Source: Planctomycetota bacterium
GTDB lineage: Bacteria; Planctomycetota; Planctomycetia; Planctomycetales; Planctomycetaceae
Reading direction: 5' to 3'
Length of the DNA stretch: 64,000 nucleotides
Assembly (NCBI GenBank): GCA_003670925.1
Contig: QWQG01000165.1
Span: forward strand, 32,424 to 96,423
Below are positions 53,819 to 64,000 of this stretch, piece after piece. The notes beneath the pieces were generated by a model that was given only the letters and a program-made list of their open reading frames with translations, was not told the DNA's origin and did not search any database. The number at the start of each line of letters is the position of its first letter. Positions within the stretch are counted from its first letter, which is position 1. The position numbers were made by a program, and so were the translations under genes.

Positions 53819-54808
53819 ATGCTGCGTATTCGTAACATTCAATCGTCCGGTAAACGTAATTTTCTCGCGATGTGCGCTTCTGCCGTAAGCCTTGGCGCAA
53901 TTTGTGTAAGCTTCGACCCGGTGCCAGCCGGGGATGACATTCAGATCACTCGCGTGGATTCAGGAAACACGGCACTCGTCGACTCGTGCGACGTTCCGCT
54001 GCCTCCGGCACTGCAGGGTAGCCTTTCAGAGGCTGTCAGTTCAGTTCAATCGATCGCCCCGGTTCTGACCGTCAACGGGGGCGACCTGAGCAACGACGAT
54101 GCAATCAAATTTTCACTGTTGCTTCTGAAAGACGGGGGACGCTTCATCGACAATATTGACAACTACCGTGTTACCTTTGAAAAGCGTGAACGCATTAAAG
54201 GGGACATCGGTGAACTCGAAACAATGGAACTGAAAGTTCGTCACGCGCCAAACTTCAGCGTCTACATGAAATGGAAAACAGGGGATGCAGGCCGGCAGTT
54301 ACTATACAACGATGAATACGACGATAAGCAAATGGTTGTGAAACTTGGTGGTCTGAAAGGTCGAATTCTGCCAGCGTTGAAACTCGATCCACTCGGTTCA
54401 GAAGCCAAAGCAGGAGCACGCTATCCTGTCACTGAAGCTGGAATCTCAGGCATGATCCGACAGATGATTGTGCATCGCGAAAATGACGTGAATCACGGAC
54501 AAGGCGTAGATTGCCGACGCCTGCAAAATCAGGAATTTGACGAACGCGAGTGCTACTGCTTTGAGTATGAATACAGTGCACCGAAATTCAATACTCTGTA
54601 CCGGAAAAGCATCGTCCTGATGGATACCCGCTACCACGTGCCTCTTAAAGTTACGAATTACACTTGGAGCGATAACACCGAAGGCCTGACACCCGAACAA
54701 CTCGACGAAATGACGATGATCGAAGACTATGCCTTTCGCAAACTGGACATGGGTGCGAAACTCGTCGCCGAAGACTTCAGTCGCGACAATCCAGCGTATC
54801 GCATGTAA
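53819..54808 (+). CDS. secreted DUF1571 protein
   Basis: ATG 53819 has AGAGG about 10 nt upstream, giving 329 aa. A signal peptide (NFLAMCASAVSLGAICVSF) ends near VPAGDD. DUF1571 features follow: FIDNIDNYRVTFEKRERIKG, ETMELKVRHAPNFSVYMKWK, LKLDPLGSEAKAGARYPVTE, RECYCFEYEYSAPKFNTLYR and KSIVLMDTRYHVPLKVTNYT. The fold resembles LolA/LppX-like lipoprotein-carrier half-barrels by pattern, which would fit an envelope lipid-transport role, but this is inference. A strong terminator follows, so it is monocistronic. Confidence 0.85.
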   Translation: MLRIRNIQSSGKRNFLAMCASAVSLGAICVSFDPVPAGDDIQITRVDSGNTALVDSCDVPLPPALQGSLSEAVSSVQSIAPVLTVNGGDLSNDDAIKFSLLLLKDGGRFIDNIDNYRVTFEKRERIKGDIGELETMELKVRHAPNFSVYMKWKTGDAGRQLLYNDEYDDKQMVVKLGGLKGRILPALKLDPLGSEAKAGARYPVTEAGISGMIRQMIVHRENDVNHGQGVDCRRLQNQEFDERECYCFEYEYSAPKFNTLYRKSIVLMDTRYHVPLKVTNYTWSDNTEGLTPEQLDEMTMIEDYAFRKLDMGAKLVAEDFSRDNPAYRM

Positions 54809-57042: not shown

Positions 57043-58593
57043 CTACTGCTCTTGTGCCACGGTGAGATCCACTTTGGCACGGACCGTGCGGCGGTCGAGC
57101 TGGAGCAGCCGAGCCGCCTTCTCAAAACTCTTTGTCTGACGATAGGCCATGGTGCAGTACTCCGCTAAAAGCTCATCAGCAGTTAGGCTGAGTGACTGGA
57201 GCCGCATAAGTAGCCGCTGTGCCGCTGGCGAATTCCCCGGGAGTGAAGCACCGATAGGGCTTTGTGCCGGTGTATAAGATCCGTGGATCATGATATTCCG
57301 AACGCACTGCTCAAGCTCCCGAATGTTGCCAGGCCAATGATAGTTGGCCGGCAGATTCCGGTTTAACCATTGTACTACTTCCTGCGTCAAAACTTCCTGC
57401 TCACCAGCCGCCACGCGTCCTGCGATATGCGCCACGATGTTCTCCAGCACTTCAGGGTTGTCTTGAACCTGCGACGCTAAGGAGGGAGTCTCGATCACAT
57501 CTGCGCAAAGTCGATAGTAGAGGTCTTCCCGAAACGCTCCCGCTTCGATCTCCCGCCGGAGATCGCGGTTTGTTGCGGCAATCATCTTTCCTTCAAATTT
57601 TCGGATCCGAGTTTCGCCCAGACGCTGGAACTGGCGATTTTGCAGAACACGCAGCAATTTCACCTGAATGGTTCCGTCCAGCTCGCCAATTTCATCTAAA
57701 AGAATGGCGCCATGTTCACCACAGGCTTCCAGCCATCCGGCTCGCGCTCCCGCAGCATCAGTGAAGGCTCCTTTCGCATGGCCAAACAACTCGGACTCAA
57801 CGAGATTTCTGGACAGGGCCGAAATGTTGACCGCGAAATAAGACTCTGCGGGATGTATCGCGAACTTTCCCTGCTTCGGATCAAATGGAATGTAGCGCGA
57901 CATTCCAATCGCCTGTGCGACCAGCTCCTTACCACTCCCACTAGGGCCTGTCACAAGGGTCGTCACCTGATGTAGACTTTGATAAAGACTGCGTCGGTAT
58001 CGCCGGAGATCATGCGTAAAAATGGACTGCCAGATTCTGGCACGCAGCCTTGCTGCAGGTAATGATTGTCCAATCACGCACTCAAAGATATGGAAGAACG
58101 CGCGGTACACCTGATGGAAAATCTCAAACAGATGTAGCTTATGACTGAGCGACGGCAATTGCAGATCTGGCAACTGCAGCCAGTAATCAAATTGTGTCGA
58201 GTACCATTTCCAGACTGGCAAATCTGTGCCACCCTGAACCACGGTCTCAGGAACGCGTTTTCCCCAGACCTCCAGTTGCTCGTAGAAAAGAATATAGAGC
58301 ACCAAGTCATCATACAGGCATAACTGTTCGTTGCAGACAGCATTTCCTCGGAGCAACTTGTTACGCAAGACTTCGGCCACACTCCGTGCTCGCTCAAGAA
58401 TCAGCACTAGGTTGCTGCGGCGCTGGGGCATCTGCTGAGTTGTAAATCCCCAGTACTCTTGCTGTTCTGCGACAAAGCGATCGCCCAGCGCGGCTTTTTC
58501 CAATTCGAGTCGCGCTGCCAGAAATGGATTGGCATTGCTCAGTTCGCCGACCGCTCGAACAAAGGGTAAGTCTTCTGCTGGAATGAACCCCAT
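57043..58593 (-). CDS. sigma-54-type AAA+ transcriptional activator with unrecognised helical N-terminal domain
   Basis: ATG 58593 has AAAGG about 10 nt upstream, giving 516 aa. Residues about 1-205 are helical with no receiver, PAS or GAF signature (LVLILERARSVAEVLRNKLL, LCLYDDLVLYILFYEQLEVW, LHLFEIFHQVYRAFFHIFEC). The AAA+ domain has GPSGSGKELVAQAIG (Walker A), ELFGHAKGAFTDAAGARAGW (GAFTDA, a common form of the sigma-54-contact loop), GAILLDEIGELDGTIQVKLL (Walker B), IAATNRDLRREIEAGAFRED and the R-finger LYYRL, then NYHWPGNIRELEQCVRN. It ends in a Fis-type helix-turn-helix (FEKAARLLQLDRRTVRAKV). It is divergent from the VIT/VWA gene and probably controls it. Confidence 0.88.
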   Translation of the reverse strand: MGFIPAEDLPFVRAVGELSNANPFLAARLELEKAALGDRFVAEQQEYWGFTTQQMPQRRSNLVLILERARSVAEVLRNKLLRGNAVCNEQLCLYDDLVLYILFYEQLEVWGKRVPETVVQGGTDLPVWKWYSTQFDYWLQLPDLQLPSLSHKLHLFEIFHQVYRAFFHIFECVIGQSLPAARLRARIWQSIFTHDLRRYRRSLYQSLHQVTTLVTGPSGSGKELVAQAIGMSRYIPFDPKQGKFAIHPAESYFAVNISALSRNLVESELFGHAKGAFTDAAGARAGWLEACGEHGAILLDEIGELDGTIQVKLLRVLQNRQFQRLGETRIRKFEGKMIAATNRDLRREIEAGAFREDLYYRLCADVIETPSLASQVQDNPEVLENIVAHIAGRVAAGEQEVLTQEVVQWLNRNLPANYHWPGNIRELEQCVRNIMIHGSYTPAQSPIGASLPGNSPAAQRLLMRLQSLSLTADELLAEYCTMAYRQTKSFEKAARLLQLDRRTVRAKVDLTVAQEQ

Positions 58594-58644
58594 CAATGGC
58601 GACCTTTCACTGAACCCGGATTAAACCCCACCGCACAATGACAA

Positions 58645-58669
58645 AAAATGTACCTTAAAAATACATTTT
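58645..58669. promoter_or_regulatory. 8-bp inverted repeat, candidate activator-binding (enhancer) site
   Basis: AAAATGTA (58645-58652) and TACATTTT (58662-58669) are exact reverse complements with a 9-nt AT-rich spacer; a further ATGTAC lies at 58670-58675. The centre is about 120 bp upstream of the GC element of the promoter, the usual distance for a sigma-54 activator site. Confidence 0.5.
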
Positions 58670-58730
58670 ATGTACACTGCTAGCTCTCTACATTCTCATT
58701 TTTTGTTTTTACTGTTTAACTTAAGCCTAT

Positions 58731-58749
58731 ACATAAAAAGTACTTATGT
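58731..58749. promoter_or_regulatory. 6-bp inverted repeat near the promoter
   Basis: ACATAA (58731-58736) and TTATGT (58744-58749) flank a 7-nt spacer, 14 nt upstream of the promoter element start. It is shorter and less certain than the distal repeat; the two share an ACAT/ATGT core. Confidence 0.35.
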
Positions 58750-58763
58750 CATTTAATTAAATC

Positions 58764-58781
58764 TTGGTACTGAACGTGCGA
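58764..58781 (+). promoter_or_regulatory. sigma-54-like promoter (-24/-12)
   Basis: TTGGTACTGAACGTGCGA carries GG (58766-58767) and GC (58778-58779) exactly 10 nt apart, close to the TGGCAC-N5-TTGC consensus (TGGTAC and GTGC here). A transcript would start near 58790, about 40 nt before the ATG at 58832. An adjacent sigma-54-type activator gene supports it. Confidence 0.5.
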
Positions 58782-58831
58782 TGCACATTTTCGTCTACAG
58801 GTTTTAAAACATTCAAACAGCGGAGATGAAA

Positions 58832-60994
58832 ATGTTGACCATCGCATGCCGACCACAGAGACCACTACCAATTGTCATTTTTCTGGGAGTCTGCTGCTGC
58901 TTTCAGTCACAGCAGGGTGAGGCCTCAGGCCTTTTGATTGCCGATGGTGGCCTAGGAGGGGTGCTCGAAATCAAGGAACATGAGGTTTCAGTTGTGATCA
59001 ACAACGGCATTGCCGTGACAGAGGTTCGACAGGTGTTTCATAACACCGAACAGCGGATCGTTGAGGCCCTTTACACATTCCCCGTGCCCAGCGGAGCGAG
59101 TGTCAGTAACTTCAGCATGATCATCAACGGCAAGGAAATGGTCGGTGAAGTGGTAGAGAAGAAACGAGCTCGCCAGATCTATGACAGTTACAAAGCGGTC
59201 AAACGCGATCCTGGCCTACTGGAGCAGGTTGACTACAAAACTTTTGAACTCCGGATTTTTCCAATTCCCGCCGGGGCGGATCAGCACATCAAAATAACGT
59301 ATTGTCAGCAGTTGGACTTCGACCACAACAACGCCACATGGGTTTACCCACTCGCCACCACAACTCGCACAGACATCAATCAGAAAACCACAGGGAAGTT
59401 TGCACTGACCGTAGATGTCAAAAGCGAGATCCCGATCACGAAGATGTTCAGCCCATCGCATGAGGAGGACTTTGCGATTGCCAGTTACACCCCAAACTAC
59501 ACGCGCGCCAGCCTAGAAGTTCAGGAAGGTAACCTGAGCCAAGACGTGGTGATTGCTTTCGACACTGAACGTCCGCGGACTGGTGTTGACATTGTCACCT
59601 CAAAACGATCGGGCGAAGATGGCTATTTCATGATGACCGTGACCGCCGGAAAGGAATTGGAGGAAGATAGTGCAGGGATGGACTATGTGTTTGTGATGGA
59701 TATCTCGGGCAGTATGGGTAACGATGGCAAGCTAACGCATTCGCGGAACACGGTGGATTCATTCGTGACGTCACTTGGAACGGAAGATCGCTTCGAGATA
59801 ATCACCTTCAATAATGCTCCGCAGATGCACTTTGGGAAGATGACCGTTGTTAGTGACGAATCGCGAAAATCGGCTGAGGAGTTTCTGAAGTCGCAACGAG
59901 CCAAGGGTGGAACTAGTCTTCGCCCGGCCGTTACAACAGCCTACAAGTATAAAGACGGGGACCGCGCGTTGAACGTGGTCGTTCTGTCCGACGGCATGAC
60001 CGAGGACAAAGAACAGTCTGAGTTGCTTCGGCTGATTTCGACTGCCCCCTCTGGAACTCGAGTCTTCTGCATCGGCATTGGAAATGATGTGAATCGTCCG
60101 TTGCTCAAACAGCTCGCTGAGGGGGCTGGCGGATTGGCCGCCTTCGTTTCCCAGCAAGACGACTTTGCTCGTCAGTCGCAAGCATTCCGGCGGAAGCTGA
60201 TGCGTCCGGTAGCAACGGCAGTGCGGATTATTGTGAATGGGATTGAGACCTCCGACATCACGCCCGAAGCTTTGCCGGATCTATTCTATGGGGCACCGTT
60301 GAGACTTTCCGGACGTTACAAAAACTCCGGTGACGCGACGATCACAATCGAAGCGGACGTGATGGGGCGGCCTATCAGTCAGACCGTGCAAGTCAAATTT
60401 CCGGATGTCGAAGAAACCAATCCCGAGATCGAGCGATTATGGGCGTTTCAGCAGGTTGAGCAACTTATGGCTGGCATTCGCAGGAATGGCGAATCAGCAG
60501 CCTCGGTGGCAAGGATTCTGAATCTCTGCGAGGGATATTCGATCGCTGGAGAATATGCGTCATTCATCGTCCTAGAAAATGATGCCGAATACAGCCGTTG
60601 GGCCATCGAACGCCGGAATGCGACGCGCGTCAACCGCGACGACAATGCTCGTCTTCGTCTGCAGGAGCAGCTGCTCCAATTAAGGGATTCCGCATTGGCT
60701 CAGACGGGTCCTGCTGAGCCCCAAGCTGTTGCGGCCTCCGAGCCCGGGCATCAGAACGGCTCTCAGACTAGCCAGACATCAGCAGCAAGTCCTTCGAGTA
60801 CACTACCAACACCAACCGACTTGAATTGGACGCGGCAATCATCACCGTCGGTCAGTCAGTCATTTAGTGGAGGCAGCCGTGGCGGTGGAGCGATCGACCC
60901 TCTCACGGGGCTGCTAGCCATCGGGCTTGCCGTAGCCGCAGTGTCCAATCGGAAGCGCCGGGGCATCAAACTCGAAAACCCCAACCGCAACTGA
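58832..60994 (+). CDS. secreted VIT/VWA-domain protein with GlyGly-CTERM-like sorting tail
   Basis: I use ATG 58832, which lies 6 nt after GGAG; ATG 58826 directly abuts it. The 720-aa product has a signal peptide (PLPIVIFLGVCCCFQSQQGE), then a VIT domain (about 35-170: EVSVVINNGIAVTEVRQVFH, EALYTFPVPSGASVSNFSMI, KKRARQIYDSYKAVKRDPGL). A VWA domain follows with a complete MIDAS: DISGSMG (Asp290), GGTSLRPA and LSDGMTED. After a beta-rich region and a Ser/Thr/Pro linker, the last about 40 residues are GGSRGGGAIDPLTGLLAIGL and AVAAVSNRKRRG: a Gly-rich motif, a membrane helix and an Arg/Lys cluster. That is the layout of rhombosortase substrates, and a rhombosortase gene follows. Confidence 0.88.
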   Translation: MLTIACRPQRPLPIVIFLGVCCCFQSQQGEASGLLIADGGLGGVLEIKEHEVSVVINNGIAVTEVRQVFHNTEQRIVEALYTFPVPSGASVSNFSMIINGKEMVGEVVEKKRARQIYDSYKAVKRDPGLLEQVDYKTFELRIFPIPAGADQHIKITYCQQLDFDHNNATWVYPLATTTRTDINQKTTGKFALTVDVKSEIPITKMFSPSHEEDFAIASYTPNYTRASLEVQEGNLSQDVVIAFDTERPRTGVDIVTSKRSGEDGYFMMTVTAGKELEEDSAGMDYVFVMDISGSMGNDGKLTHSRNTVDSFVTSLGTEDRFEIITFNNAPQMHFGKMTVVSDESRKSAEEFLKSQRAKGGTSLRPAVTTAYKYKDGDRALNVVVLSDGMTEDKEQSELLRLISTAPSGTRVFCIGIGNDVNRPLLKQLAEGAGGLAAFVSQQDDFARQSQAFRRKLMRPVATAVRIIVNGIETSDITPEALPDLFYGAPLRLSGRYKNSGDATITIEADVMGRPISQTVQVKFPDVEETNPEIERLWAFQQVEQLMAGIRRNGESAASVARILNLCEGYSIAGEYASFIVLENDAEYSRWAIERRNATRVNRDDNARLRLQEQLLQLRDSALAQTGPAEPQAVAASEPGHQNGSQTSQTSAASPSSTLPTPTDLNWTRQSSPSVSQSFSGGSRGGGAIDPLTGLLAIGLAVAAVSNRKRRGIKLENPNRN

Positions 60995-61037
60995 GTCCTG
61001 AAGCGCCGTCATCGCGCAGATGGCCATCAAACATAAA

Positions 61038-61067
61038 CAGGTTGCCGAGCCGATGTTCGGCAACCTG
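61038..61067 (+). promoter_or_regulatory. intercistronic 11-bp perfect hairpin
   Basis: CAGGTTGCCGA (61038-61048) pairs exactly with TCGGCAACCTG (61057-61067) around an 8-nt loop. No T-run follows on the plus strand, so termination is unlikely. It may stabilise the upstream message or limit rhombosortase expression. On the minus strand it is followed by TTTATGTTT. Confidence 0.55.
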
Positions 61068-61122
61068 AACAACCATGACCTTCCAGCATCGATTCCCGGC
61101 AACCTCGCCAGCACTGGACCGG

Positions 61123-61782
61123 ATGTCTGCCATGCAGATCCTTCAACGCTTGTCACAAATCCCGGTCACACTTTTCCTCGTGGCACTCGCAGTCGTCGCG
61201 CATGTGGCCGGGCCACTTGTCCTCCTGCTGACGATCGATTTAAAAAACATCTCAATTCTTGAATTGCACCGGGTTCTCACATGTCATTTACTACACTGGT
61301 CGGCTGATCATTTACTTTGGGATTTGGGGATGTTCGCCGCCCTTGGAACGATTGCCGAACTGACCATGCCACGACGTTACCGCCTGACTTTGCTTCTGGC
61401 GGCTCTCCTGATTCCTGTCGGCGTCATGCTGCACCACCCGGAGCTGGAGTCTTACCGTGGTCTCAGTGGAATCGATACGGCTCTCTTTGGACTCATTGTG
61501 ACTGATCTGCTCGGTCGCCGACTCGTCGAGCGTGACAGGAAATCGGTGCTGCTGTTTTCGCTACTCTTGTTTGGACTTCTGGCAAAGTTGGCGACAGAAA
61601 TCGTCTGGGGCACTAACATTTTTGTCAGCGACACCTCGTTCGTGCCTGTTCCTCTCGCACATCTCATTGGTGCTGCAACTGGCCTGCTGCTGGGGGCAGC
61701 CGCTCCGTGGTGTTCCCCGCCGACTCAAAGGCGTCAACTGCGGTGTGCAGGAACGGTGGTTGGCAACGGTGCATGCCCTTAA
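61123..61782 (+). CDS. rrtA: rhombosortase (rhomboid-family GlyGly-CTERM serine protease)
   Basis: The start is uncertain (ATG 61075, 61123 or 61132, none with a strong ribosome binding site); 61123 gives 219 aa. The product has about six membrane segments and the key rhombosortase motifs: RVLTCHLLHWSADHLLWDLG, the catalytic serine in YRGLSGIDTALFG (Ser115) and the catalytic histidine in VPVPLAHLIGAATG (His180). Rhombosortases are short rhomboid proteases that cleave the GG-CTERM tail and help attach substrates to the outer surface. It lies 128 nt after the VIT/VWA gene, whose tail fits as substrate. The stop overlaps the convergent glycosyltransferase stop by 4 nt. Confidence 0.85.
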   Translation: MSAMQILQRLSQIPVTLFLVALAVVAHVAGPLVLLLTIDLKNISILELHRVLTCHLLHWSADHLLWDLGMFAALGTIAELTMPRRYRLTLLLAALLIPVGVMLHHPELESYRGLSGIDTALFGLIVTDLLGRRLVERDRKSVLLFSLLLFGLLAKLATEIVWGTNIFVSDTSFVPVPLAHLIGAATGLLLGAAAPWCSPPTQRRQLRCAGTVVGNGACP

Positions 61783-62567
61783 GTGCCAGTGTGGATTTGG
61801 TTCTGCCACTCTCTGTAGATCAATCCGGGCAGCATCCATGCGTTTCTCGCGTATCGCGACGCCAGCCTTCGCGGATTCGTGAGTAGTCGATGAGACCACT
61901 CGAGATTTAAGTTTCTGACCCAAACTGGAGCGCGCGTTTGACGCCCGGCCAGAAAATCAATTGTAGCCCCCGCAGCAATGGCCACTTTGCAAGTCAGATC
62001 CTCATGAAATCGTTTTAACCACAGTTCCTGCTTTGGTGCGCCGAAACCCACAATCAAAACATCCGGGCTGCAGGCCTTAATTCTTTCCAGAATTTGCTGA
62101 TTTTCAGCTTCATGATGCTCAAATCCTAGGGGAGGACTGTACGTGCCCACAACCCTCAGTTTTGGCCAACGCTGCTGAATTGCTTGGGACGCGGCATCCG
62201 CAACTCCCGGAGCTGCCCCGAGCAGAAACACGGTTCCACCGCATGGATGCTCATTCATGGACGTCAATAATTTCGGCACCAAATCTGAACCGGCAACTCG
62301 TTCTGGTAATGGATCATTGAAAAGGCGTGACGCCGTCACAAGCGGCCACCCGTCTGCGACTACGAGCGATGCACTACGGTAAGCATCCCGCAGGTTCGCA
62401 TTCTGTTGCAACTGAAGTACGTGATCCAAATTTGGAGTGACCACGTACCGGCACGTCTGTTGATCGTTCGTGATCCATGCTTGAATACGCCCGACCGCTT
62501 GGTCCATCGTCAGGCGATCAATTTTCATCCCGAAGATGGAGGTCTGCGCTGTTTCTAAAATTGTCAT
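61779..62567 (-). CDS. WecG/TagA/CpsF-family glycosyltransferase
   Basis: ATG 62567 overlaps the stop of the preceding gene (TAATG), so the two are translationally coupled; the longer upstream frame is the overlap with that gene. The 262-aa product has GT26 signatures: SIFGMKIDRLTMDQAVGRIQ, YVVTPNLDHVLQL, SLVVADGWPLVTASRLF, ERVAGSDLVPKLL, FLLGAAPGVADAAS and VGFGAPKQELWLKRF, ending NLNLEWSHRLLTNPRRLASR. It should transfer the second sugar, such as a ManNAc-type residue, to the lipid-linked sugar made by the adjacent transferase, in exopolysaccharide or teichoic-like polymer synthesis. Confidence 0.9.
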   Translation of the reverse strand: MTILETAQTSIFGMKIDRLTMDQAVGRIQAWITNDQQTCRYVVTPNLDHVLQLQQNANLRDAYRSASLVVADGWPLVTASRLFNDPLPERVAGSDLVPKLLTSMNEHPCGGTVFLLGAAPGVADAASQAIQQRWPKLRVVGTYSPPLGFEHHEAENQQILERIKACSPDVLIVGFGAPKQELWLKRFHEDLTCKVAIAAGATIDFLAGRQTRAPVWVRNLNLEWSHRLLTNPRRLASRYARNAWMLPGLIYREWQNQIHTGT

Positions 62568-63370
62568 TAGACGCCCTCGCCATTGAAGACAGCAGGAATG
62601 GTGCGAAGGATGATTCCAAAGTCCAGCATCAGGCTCTGGTGCCTGATGTATTCGAGATCCAGTTTTACCTGCTCCGGAAAAGGCAGACGACTTCTGCCAG
62701 AAATCTGCCAAATACAAGTCAGACCCGGCTTTACTGCTAATCGCTGTAAATCAAACCGTGAGTAAAGTTGAGTTTCACGAGGGAGTGGTGGTCGCGGGCC
62801 CACGAGACTCATGTCGCCCATCATGACATTAAAAATCTGCGGAAACTCATCGATGCTATATCGCCGCAAAACTTTACCAAGCGATGTCACTCGGGGGTCG
62901 TTGGACATTTTAAATGTTCGCGGGTCCGAGTGCTGATTCTTGACCATCAGCCGTTGTTGCAAAGCCTCGGCATTTGGTGTCATTGATCGGAACTTGTAGC
63001 ACCTAAATGTGCGGCCTTCTTTCCCAACACGTTCCTGACTGAAAAACACGGTCCCCCTGTCATGCCACTTGATCATGACTGCCACCACAAGAAAAAGTGG
63101 AGCCAACACGATAATCGCCGCAAGACTGATTGCGATGTCCATGATGCGTTTAGTCAAGTAGTAAAAAGCAGATTGAACATTGATCTGTCGAACGCCTTCA
63201 ACAAACTCCTGGCTGTTTGTCGTCAGCGCCGCGGCATCCGTATCCAGAAATTGAGATCGACTTCCATAAATCGCTTCATTCGAAGTCTGCCGCAAAATGG
63301 TGCGGTCCGAATTATCGACCTGACGAAGTGTCTGTTGAGGGCGATTCTGGATAGGTACAGCGAGAGACAT
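62567..63370 (-). CDS. undecaprenyl-phosphate sugar phosphotransferase (exopolysaccharide initiating enzyme)
   Basis: ATG 63370 (MSLAVPIQNRPQQTL) is preferred over a far upstream in-frame start; 267 aa. A variable N-terminus is followed by the bacterial sugar transferase domain (PF02397): KRIMDIAISLAAIIVLAPLF (re-entrant membrane helix), FFSQERVGKEGRTFRCYKFR, then RYSIDEFPQIFNVMMGDMSL with the catalytic Asp-Glu, VGPRPPLPRETQLYSRF and KPGLTCIWQISGRSRLPF. It is the short monotopic type without the four N-terminal membrane helices of WbaP. It initiates repeat-unit assembly; the WecG/TagA gene follows immediately. Confidence 0.92.
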   Translation of the reverse strand: MSLAVPIQNRPQQTLRQVDNSDRTILRQTSNEAIYGSRSQFLDTDAAALTTNSQEFVEGVRQINVQSAFYYLTKRIMDIAISLAAIIVLAPLFLVVAVMIKWHDRGTVFFSQERVGKEGRTFRCYKFRSMTPNAEALQQRLMVKNQHSDPRTFKMSNDPRVTSLGKVLRRYSIDEFPQIFNVMMGDMSLVGPRPPLPRETQLYSRFDLQRLAVKPGLTCIWQISGRSRLPFPEQVKLDLEYIRHQSLMLDFGIILRTIPAVFNGEGV

Positions 63371-64000
63371 CCGGTGGACTTCGACTTCTATTTCCAGTTC
63401 TGAATAACTCACCCATGGTGAGCAAGTTGCCGCAAATTGGGGGAAATAGTTTTCCGAGTCTTTTCGTGGACTACATTCGTGCAAAGCGGAGTGGCATCTC
63501 AATTGACCACCCCCTGAGCACGATCCAGTGGCAACGTGCAAATCAGATCGCGAAAGTCATGCCACTGAGGAAAGTTGAAATTGGTCCCCGCGGTCATCAA
63601 TGCCCGCGATGGCATCTCGGGGTGGCGTCTTCGTCAAATTTGCAGGGATTCAGTCATCGCCGCACAATTCTTTTTTGAGACTGCGTTACGTGGACCCACG
63701 ATTTTCGACAAAACATCAGCATGCCAGGTTGCTGTATCGAAACATCCGGGGATCCAAATGTGGTGAAAAGTCCCCGCCGTGTCATTGGAAAATTGCGGAT
63801 CACTTCCACGCCCCATGCCATTGCTCGAAAATCGCAGCGCGCACAGAAGCGAACCGCAGCATCGAAATTGCGTCCAACAGCTTCAAGACGAAAGCGACCC
63901 ACAGGACCGATATGCGCATGCGTGATCATTCTGATTTAGCGTGTTAGACATGGCGTCAAGAGTCTTACGGATCCGCCGAAATAAATGCTCCTGCTCCTCA
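63371..64000. other. upstream region of the polysaccharide pair, no clear gene
   Basis: About 630 nt. Frames are open on the minus strand (63654-63929 and an upstream extension of the transferase to 63541), but composition and lack of ribosome binding sites make them doubtful. At the right edge a minus frame ending at TGA 63883-63885 reads EEQEHLFRRIRKTLDAMSNT, helical and possibly the C-terminus of a gene beginning beyond the window. Confidence 0.35.

Follow-up and report, generated by a model that had tools for sequence, protein, structure and literature searches.

Dedicated pairs in which a rhombosortase gene adjoins that of a single GlyGly-CTERM target were described in 2011 by Haft and Varghese, who included a case from Rhodopirellula baltica SH 1 and already recorded GlyGly tails on VIT/VWA proteins (PMC3237569). 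Here we analyse a locus of related type in a 64,000-nucleotide (nt) stretch of contig QWQG01000165.1 from a Planctomycetota bacterium (hereafter the window, meaning the whole stretch): a VIT/VWA protein gene, a rhomboid protease gene downstream of it, and a divergent sigma-54-type activator gene on its other side. As in the pairs of the 2011 paper (families TIGR03902 and TIGR03501), a rhomboid-family protease adjoins one target that ends in a Gly motif, a helix and a basic tail. Unlike those pairs, which that paper describes with His four residues past the active-site Ser (Ser+4), the proteases here have Thr or Ser at Ser+4 and Asp at Ser+3; furthermore the tail lies under both GlyGly models tested, and the locus has the divergent activator and a predicted intercistronic hairpin.

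Three other systems bear comparison. For RssP and VesB of Vibrio cholerae a cut at the Gly motif followed by a lipid-type tether and surface location has likewise been proposed (PMC6219818, PMC13393428), although there the genome has one protease and six GlyGly-CTERM proteins, mostly proteases and a nuclease (PMC13393428). Natural substrates of bacterial rhomboids had been known in very few cases: in 2018 TatA of Providencia was called the sole one identified ahead of VesB (PMC6219818). The marine proteobacterial sortase target system (TIGR03788 with sortase TIGR03784) also sets a VIT/VWA protein beside its own sorting enzyme, but our substrate scores below the TIGR03788 cut-off (251.4 versus 551.65 bits, although this is its best NCBIfam match), its tail has no LPXTG, and the enzyme is a rhomboid rather than a Gram-negative sortase. 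In Aquincola a PEP-CTERM protein, which likewise ends in a sorting tail, is under RpoN (sigma-54) control (PMC9850573); that tail is of exosortase type, however, the bacterial group is another one, and the abstract presents no unit of regulator, substrate and enzyme. Full-text searching of one literature collection found no paper joining rhombosortase with RpoN or sigma-54, and rhombosortase together with "planctomycet" only in PMC3237569, where a text search found no mention of sigma-54 (the hairpin was not searched for there).

The locus is a real, conserved three-gene system, of a kind partly described in 2011. We consider it probable that the unit is a dedicated sorting system, in which the protease is predicted to clip the tail of the neighbouring VIT/VWA protein and the activator likely switches both genes on. 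A preliminary description of the window had proposed an undescribed system. That was too broad, since the 2011 paper already has dedicated pairs, an instance from a planctomycete and substrates of VIT/VWA type; the activator, the active site and the hairpin do look new.

The protease and VIT/VWA genes form a conserved pair

Open reading frames and profile matches place all three genes where the preliminary description had them. The protease matches the rhombosortase model TIGR03902 at 92.9 bits (curated cut-off 84) and is the only rhomboid of the genome above that cut-off, the three other rhomboid matches scoring at most 53.5 bits. Across 59 genomes there were 13 strong rhombosortase matches (at least 75 bits), eight of them above the cut-off and five at 75.7-83.2. 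A VIT/VWA gene lies directly upstream at all 12 of these loci that could be assessed (window included; one pair, in genome G015, was counted from split contigs, and the 13th locus is at a contig end). Among eight lower-scoring rhomboid loci taken as a contrast set, none has a VIT/VWA gene directly upstream; one (G058) has such a gene about 3 kb away, without this tail.

A scan with the patterns [CTS]YRGLSG[ILV]D[ST] and [LI]HWSxxH[LC][LF]W confirmed 92 loci, of which 80 were kept and are here called the named loci; 11 of them are the same contigs as relatives of the 59-genome set. The pair is present at 74, with the VIT/VWA gene (some partial at a contig end) at most 623 nt upstream, and the other six begin at a contig end. 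Synteny among relatives is strong. In an even phylum sample of 393 genomes, where the protease and activator N-domain searches scored up to seven candidates per genome, the protease was found in 25; a VIT/VWA gene lies within the 1.5 kb flank in 21 of the 25, two of them with about 1 kb separating the genes.

By record titles, which are labels mostly of metagenome bins, the system occurs in planctomycetes, verrucomicrobia and acidobacteria (two acidobacterial records, L166 and L208). Cultured members include Lacipirellula limnantheis (L203), with the full trio, and Rhodopirellula rubra (L167), with the pair and no adjacent activator. Upstream of the latter pair stand two reading frames in the same direction, of 205 and 589 residues, which by eye might encode a sigma factor plus a kinase; these may represent another regulator.

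One sorting-type tail per genome

The VIT/VWA protein (PF08487, 110.7 bits, plus VWA) has an N-terminal hydrophobic segment that reads by eye as a signal peptide and ends in SGGSRGGGAIDPLTGLLAIGLAVAAVSNRKRRGIKLENPNRN, where the Gly motif, the hydrophobic helix and the Arg/Lys cluster originally reported are all found. Aligning 12 tails shows full conservation of a Gly triplet, an Asp, one Ala and two Arg, and a variable linker ahead of them. A profile of 11 tails, the window's included, finds the window tail at E = 9.4e-16 and no second tail of this type in its genome at E <= 1, all 41 candidates being scored. Over the 59 genomes, with up to 134 candidates scored per genome, 11 genomes have a single strong match to the profile (E <= 1.1e-8); the remaining scored candidates do not go below E = 0.0019. 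It is blind to tails unlike its 11 rows, and it missed the divergent tail of G039, which is not in the profile; among the 13 genomes where a rhombosortase reaches at least 75 bits, only G039 and G015, whose locus is split over contigs, lack a strong tail match. In five of these genomes a VIT/VWA paralog, one per genome, carries no such tail.

All 74 assessable named-locus tails have GG plus at least three basic residues in their last 25, and two of the 21 tails from the phylum sample (L222, L223) read GAG in place of GG. The GlyGly-CTERM model TIGR03501 has nothing above cut-off in the genome, and the window tail is absent from its matches at E <= 10. With TIGR03867 the window tail scores 12.0 (cut-off 19.7), and among the 10 of the 12 aligned tails that were scanned only that of G020 passes. 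Two outcomes that the preliminary description had named as refuting its dedicated pair, many such tails elsewhere in the genome and lack of synteny in relatives, were looked for and did not appear: the genome yielded no second tail of this type, no other rhomboid above the rhombosortase cut-off and no TIGR03501 match above cut-off, and synteny is kept; many substrates per genome we rejected on the 11-tail profile, which would miss dissimilar tails.

A predicted rhomboid fold with an altered active site

The preliminary description put the protease 128 nt downstream of the VIT/VWA gene. Its GLSGID and AHLIG motifs are present, but the open reading frame opens 80 nt past the VIT/VWA stop; 128 nt is the distance to an internal ATG at 61123. 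That ATG fits the close orthologs better than the reading-frame start at 61075, and model confidence is low for the first 20 residues counted from the latter, in agreement with a start at 61123, which is likely the true one. The predicted structure has the GlpG fold (Foldseek E 4.4e-5, template modelling score 0.71 by target length). The motifs GLSG at Ser131 and AHLIGAATG at His196 follow the GxSG and AHxxGxxxG pattern; both residues are invariant across 34 aligned sequences and are the predicted catalytic dyad. The loop L1 motif WRxxS/T reads HRVLT here, with Arg and Thr kept and Trp not, and several orthologs have WRLLT or WRLAS.

Behind Ser131 stand Asp134 (Ser+3) and Thr135 (Ser+4). Because the family-profile alignment matches GLSG-I-D-T of the protease to GLSG-V-V-Y of a solved GlpG, Thr135 occupies the position of the GlpG Tyr and of the His at Ser+4 (SGxxH) that is reported for virtually all rhombosortases (PMC3237569). 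A word-based protein search with 10 planctomycete query sequences, hence a biased sample, returned 106 homologs, of which 104 could be read: Ser+4 is Ser or Thr in 95, Cys in five, Ala in three and His in one, and Ser+3 is Asp in 96. Ser or Thr is also found at Ser+4 in 80 of 80 named loci, a uniformity that is partly by design since the scan patterns include active-site residues. With these sampling biases, Asp at Ser+3 with Ser or Thr at Ser+4 is the mark of a protease subfamily, apparently a new one, and because the hallmark His is missing we file the protease as a variant subfamily that would work like a rhombosortase.

A possible objection is that this rhomboid no longer cuts and, its stacking residue changed, chaperones the tail in the membrane or anchors it there. 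The replacement of Tyr/His at Ser+4 in 95 of the homologs read would suit such a role, and eukaryotic rhomboid pseudoproteases exist (PMC3237569). However, Ser131 and His196, needless in a non-catalytic protein, are invariant in the 34 sequences, and the GlpG fold is kept, so that we regard a non-cutting rhomboid as very improbable.

The divergent activator and a sigma-54-like promoter

The activator has the sigma-54 interaction AAA+ domain PF00158 (154.6 bits, cut-off 20.2), and the genome encodes rpoN (376.8 bits, cut-off 277). The activator loop is GAFTDA in the window and in four of 31 homologs listed, GAFTGA or GSFTGA in 26 and GAYTGA in one. The Fis-type helix-turn-helix PF02954 scores 12.7 bits (cut-off 22), and the DRRTV motif is widely kept in homologs. 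The N-terminal 214 residues are modelled as all-helical (mean predicted local distance difference test score 80.5). Pfam gave nothing convincing for 28 members (best E 0.0052, one member), and no PDB fold matched at E <= 0.001; an activator with a helical N-terminal domain lacking a family match looks like a new part of the system.

Could the three genes be an ordinary single-target rhombosortase/GlyGly-CTERM pair of the 2011 type, with the regulator an unrelated chance neighbour? The published pairs cited at the outset offer a precedent, and 28 of 66 assessable named loci have no adjoining activator. Against this, a divergent activator homolog (43-80% identity) is found at the other 38 (eight further loci fell outside the assessable set), in records titled planctomycete, verrucomicrobial and, in one case (L208), acidobacterial. 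It is also found in the genome even where unlinked: in the genus, 10 of 10 genomes with the pair have the activator (seven linked, three on another contig; G008 only as a contig-edge fragment), versus one of the eight without the pair (G006, with two homologs of 42% identity, L096 and L097). The promoter element tracks the activator, as detailed below, and the active site departs from the published hallmark. We therefore think the chance-neighbour explanation unlikely.

A -24/-12 element stands at a near-constant spacing from a conserved codon (169-182 nt) at all 11 examined loci from activator-bearing genomes, four with an unlinked activator among them, and at neither of two loci in genomes lacking it. 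Taken singly the sites range from weak to strong, with shuffle p from 0 to 0.275 at ten of the 11 loci (best site per 600-nt stretch); at L037 the conserved element is only the second-best site, and at L035 it was placed by alignment. A promoter score of at least 0.78 was reached at 30 of 37 loci with a divergent activator versus 11 of the 27 that lack one (Mann-Whitney p 1.9e-4; L150 and L182 left out), and for four of those 11 the activator is on another contig of the same genome. A palindrome motif, derived from the same sequences on which it was checked, is supported at loci with a linked activator and at G054, and not at G007, G008 and G011, three of the four loci with an unlinked activator; this is suggestive only of a candidate activator-binding site. 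In these same three genomes a conserved 377-residue protein (MAGxxILHVGMPRTGxSSIQES), sulfotransferase-like by eye, comes after the unlinked activator on the opposite strand (L093, L094 and L098 for G007, G011 and G008).

Regarding the notion of a pair under its own activator, the divergent position at many loci and the sigma-54-like promoter lend it support; elsewhere the activator is unlinked or absent, and members of its family are also present in genomes that lack the protease. In the phylum sample the activator N-domain was found in 16 of 25 protease-positive versus 26 of 368 protease-negative genomes (Fisher p 1.6e-11), so the activator is strongly associated with the protease but not exclusive to the system, and exclusivity was rejected. 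From 18 fetched of these 26 genomes, 16 activator loci were placed, with no VIT/VWA reading frame detected at them. Six (L282, L287, L289, L290, L291, L293) have a divergent protein of 822-964 residues with a shared C-terminus (VLLSVYRDRL... or similar), and the four of these proteins that were scanned have no Pfam match, which suggests that activators of this type have a further family of targets.

A predicted hairpin between the two genes

The hairpin test covered the window and the 31 of the 74 named loci in which 45-250 nt separate the substrate gene from the protease gene, the remaining gaps being shorter, overlapping or longer. In 25 of these 32 gaps the RNA folds at z <= -2 against dinucleotide shuffles (window z -3.2), versus one of 31 equal-length coding stretches. 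Stem length alone discriminates poorly (at least nine pairs in 31 of 32 gaps versus 18 of 31 controls), and stem sequences differ between groups. A terminator was rejected: a T run follows the hairpin in only four of 38 cases, and for this reason a part in RNA processing or stability that lowers protease dosage appears more likely than termination. The hairpin looks new to such pairs.

Proposed mechanism

We propose that the activator would bind the upstream palindromes and drive the sigma-54 promoter, and that the VIT/VWA protein, once exported, would stay anchored in the inner membrane through its tail, which the protease would cut near the Gly motif. By analogy with VesB (PMC6219818), the new C-terminal end at that motif would be joined to a lipid-type group and the trimmed protein handed on toward the cell surface, probably lipid-tethered, with the hairpin keeping the protease scarcer than its substrate. 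The VIT/VWA protein would in this way be displayed on the surface on demand. GspE-type ATPases are encoded in the genome, the best scoring 618.9 against a type II cut-off of 630.25.

Alternatively, the cut VIT/VWA protein might go free, into the periplasm or the medium, with no tether at the surface. Haft and Varghese discuss release among the outcomes (PMC3237569), and VesC of V. cholerae is shed through an autoproteolytic cut in its linker (PMC13393428); VesB, however, depends on the rhombosortase for its surface location (PMC6219818). We hold release to be doubtful, though it keeps some plausibility.

Several observations weigh against a dedicated, activator-controlled sorting unit as such. 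The published hallmark His at Ser+4 is Thr in the window protease, and the window tail passes neither TIGR03501 nor TIGR03867. Four of the 25 protease-positive genomes of the phylum sample have no VIT/VWA gene in the flank, all four being among the six weakest matches (at most 106 bits). The window activator has GAFTDA and not GAFTGA, and the window's own sigma-54 element is weak taken alone (shuffle p 0.065). The 28 assessable loci without a divergent activator count here too, as do the 26 of 42 genomes that have the activator N-domain and no protease. Lastly, the genome comparisons are confounded by shared descent.

Features of the locus and neighbouring genes

Table 1. Genes and sequence elements of the locus, in window coordinates.
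Feature	Position	Strand	Characteristics
Sigma-54-type activator gene	57043-58596	-	PF00158 AAA+ domain; C-terminal LDRRTVRAK segment
Palindrome TACATTTTATGTA, candidate activator-binding site	58662-58674		90 bases before promoter element
Sigma-54-like -24/-12 element TTGGTACTGAACGTGCG	58764-58780	+	46 nt ahead of VIT/VWA start codon
VIT/VWA protein gene, predicted substrate, 722 residues	58826-60994	+	VIT PF08487 and VWA
C-terminal sorting-type tail of VIT/VWA protein	60866-60991	+	SGGSRGGG followed by AIDP, a hydrophobic helix and a basic Arg/Lys cluster
Predicted intercistronic hairpin ACAGGTTGCCGA...TCGGCAACCTGA	61037-61068	+	No T run after it
Rhombosortase-type rhomboid protease gene	61075-61782	+	TIGR03902; GLSG Ser131, AHLIG His196

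Genes for a WecG/TagA-type glycosyltransferase and a polyprenyl sugar transferase (61779-63541, minus strand) converge on the protease gene, the first overlapping its stop codon. A conserved link to these exopolysaccharide (EPS) genes was rejected, neither being matched in the 20 loci compared. Further away, 53819-54808 (plus strand) encodes a DUF1571 protein (192 bits).

Significance

It is possible, and we put this forward only tentatively, that planctomycetes, verrucomicrobia and acidobacteria share a previously unrecognised and widespread system of three parts, represented by this locus: a protease subfamily derived from rhombosortases with a re-engineered site (Asp at Ser+3, Ser/Thr at Ser+4), paired one-to-one with a VIT/VWA surface adhesin, with its own sigma-54 activator bearing a new sensor domain and a protease dosage set by the hairpin. 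With its substrate encoded alongside, a one-to-one pair is well suited to testing cleanly how such a protease chooses its substrate and what the altered active site does, and cultured members are at hand for this. The locus adds to the remark in the 2011 paper that VIT/VWA proteins bear tails for several unrelated sorting enzymes (PMC3237569), and it hints that sigma-54 control may recur among C-terminal sorting systems.

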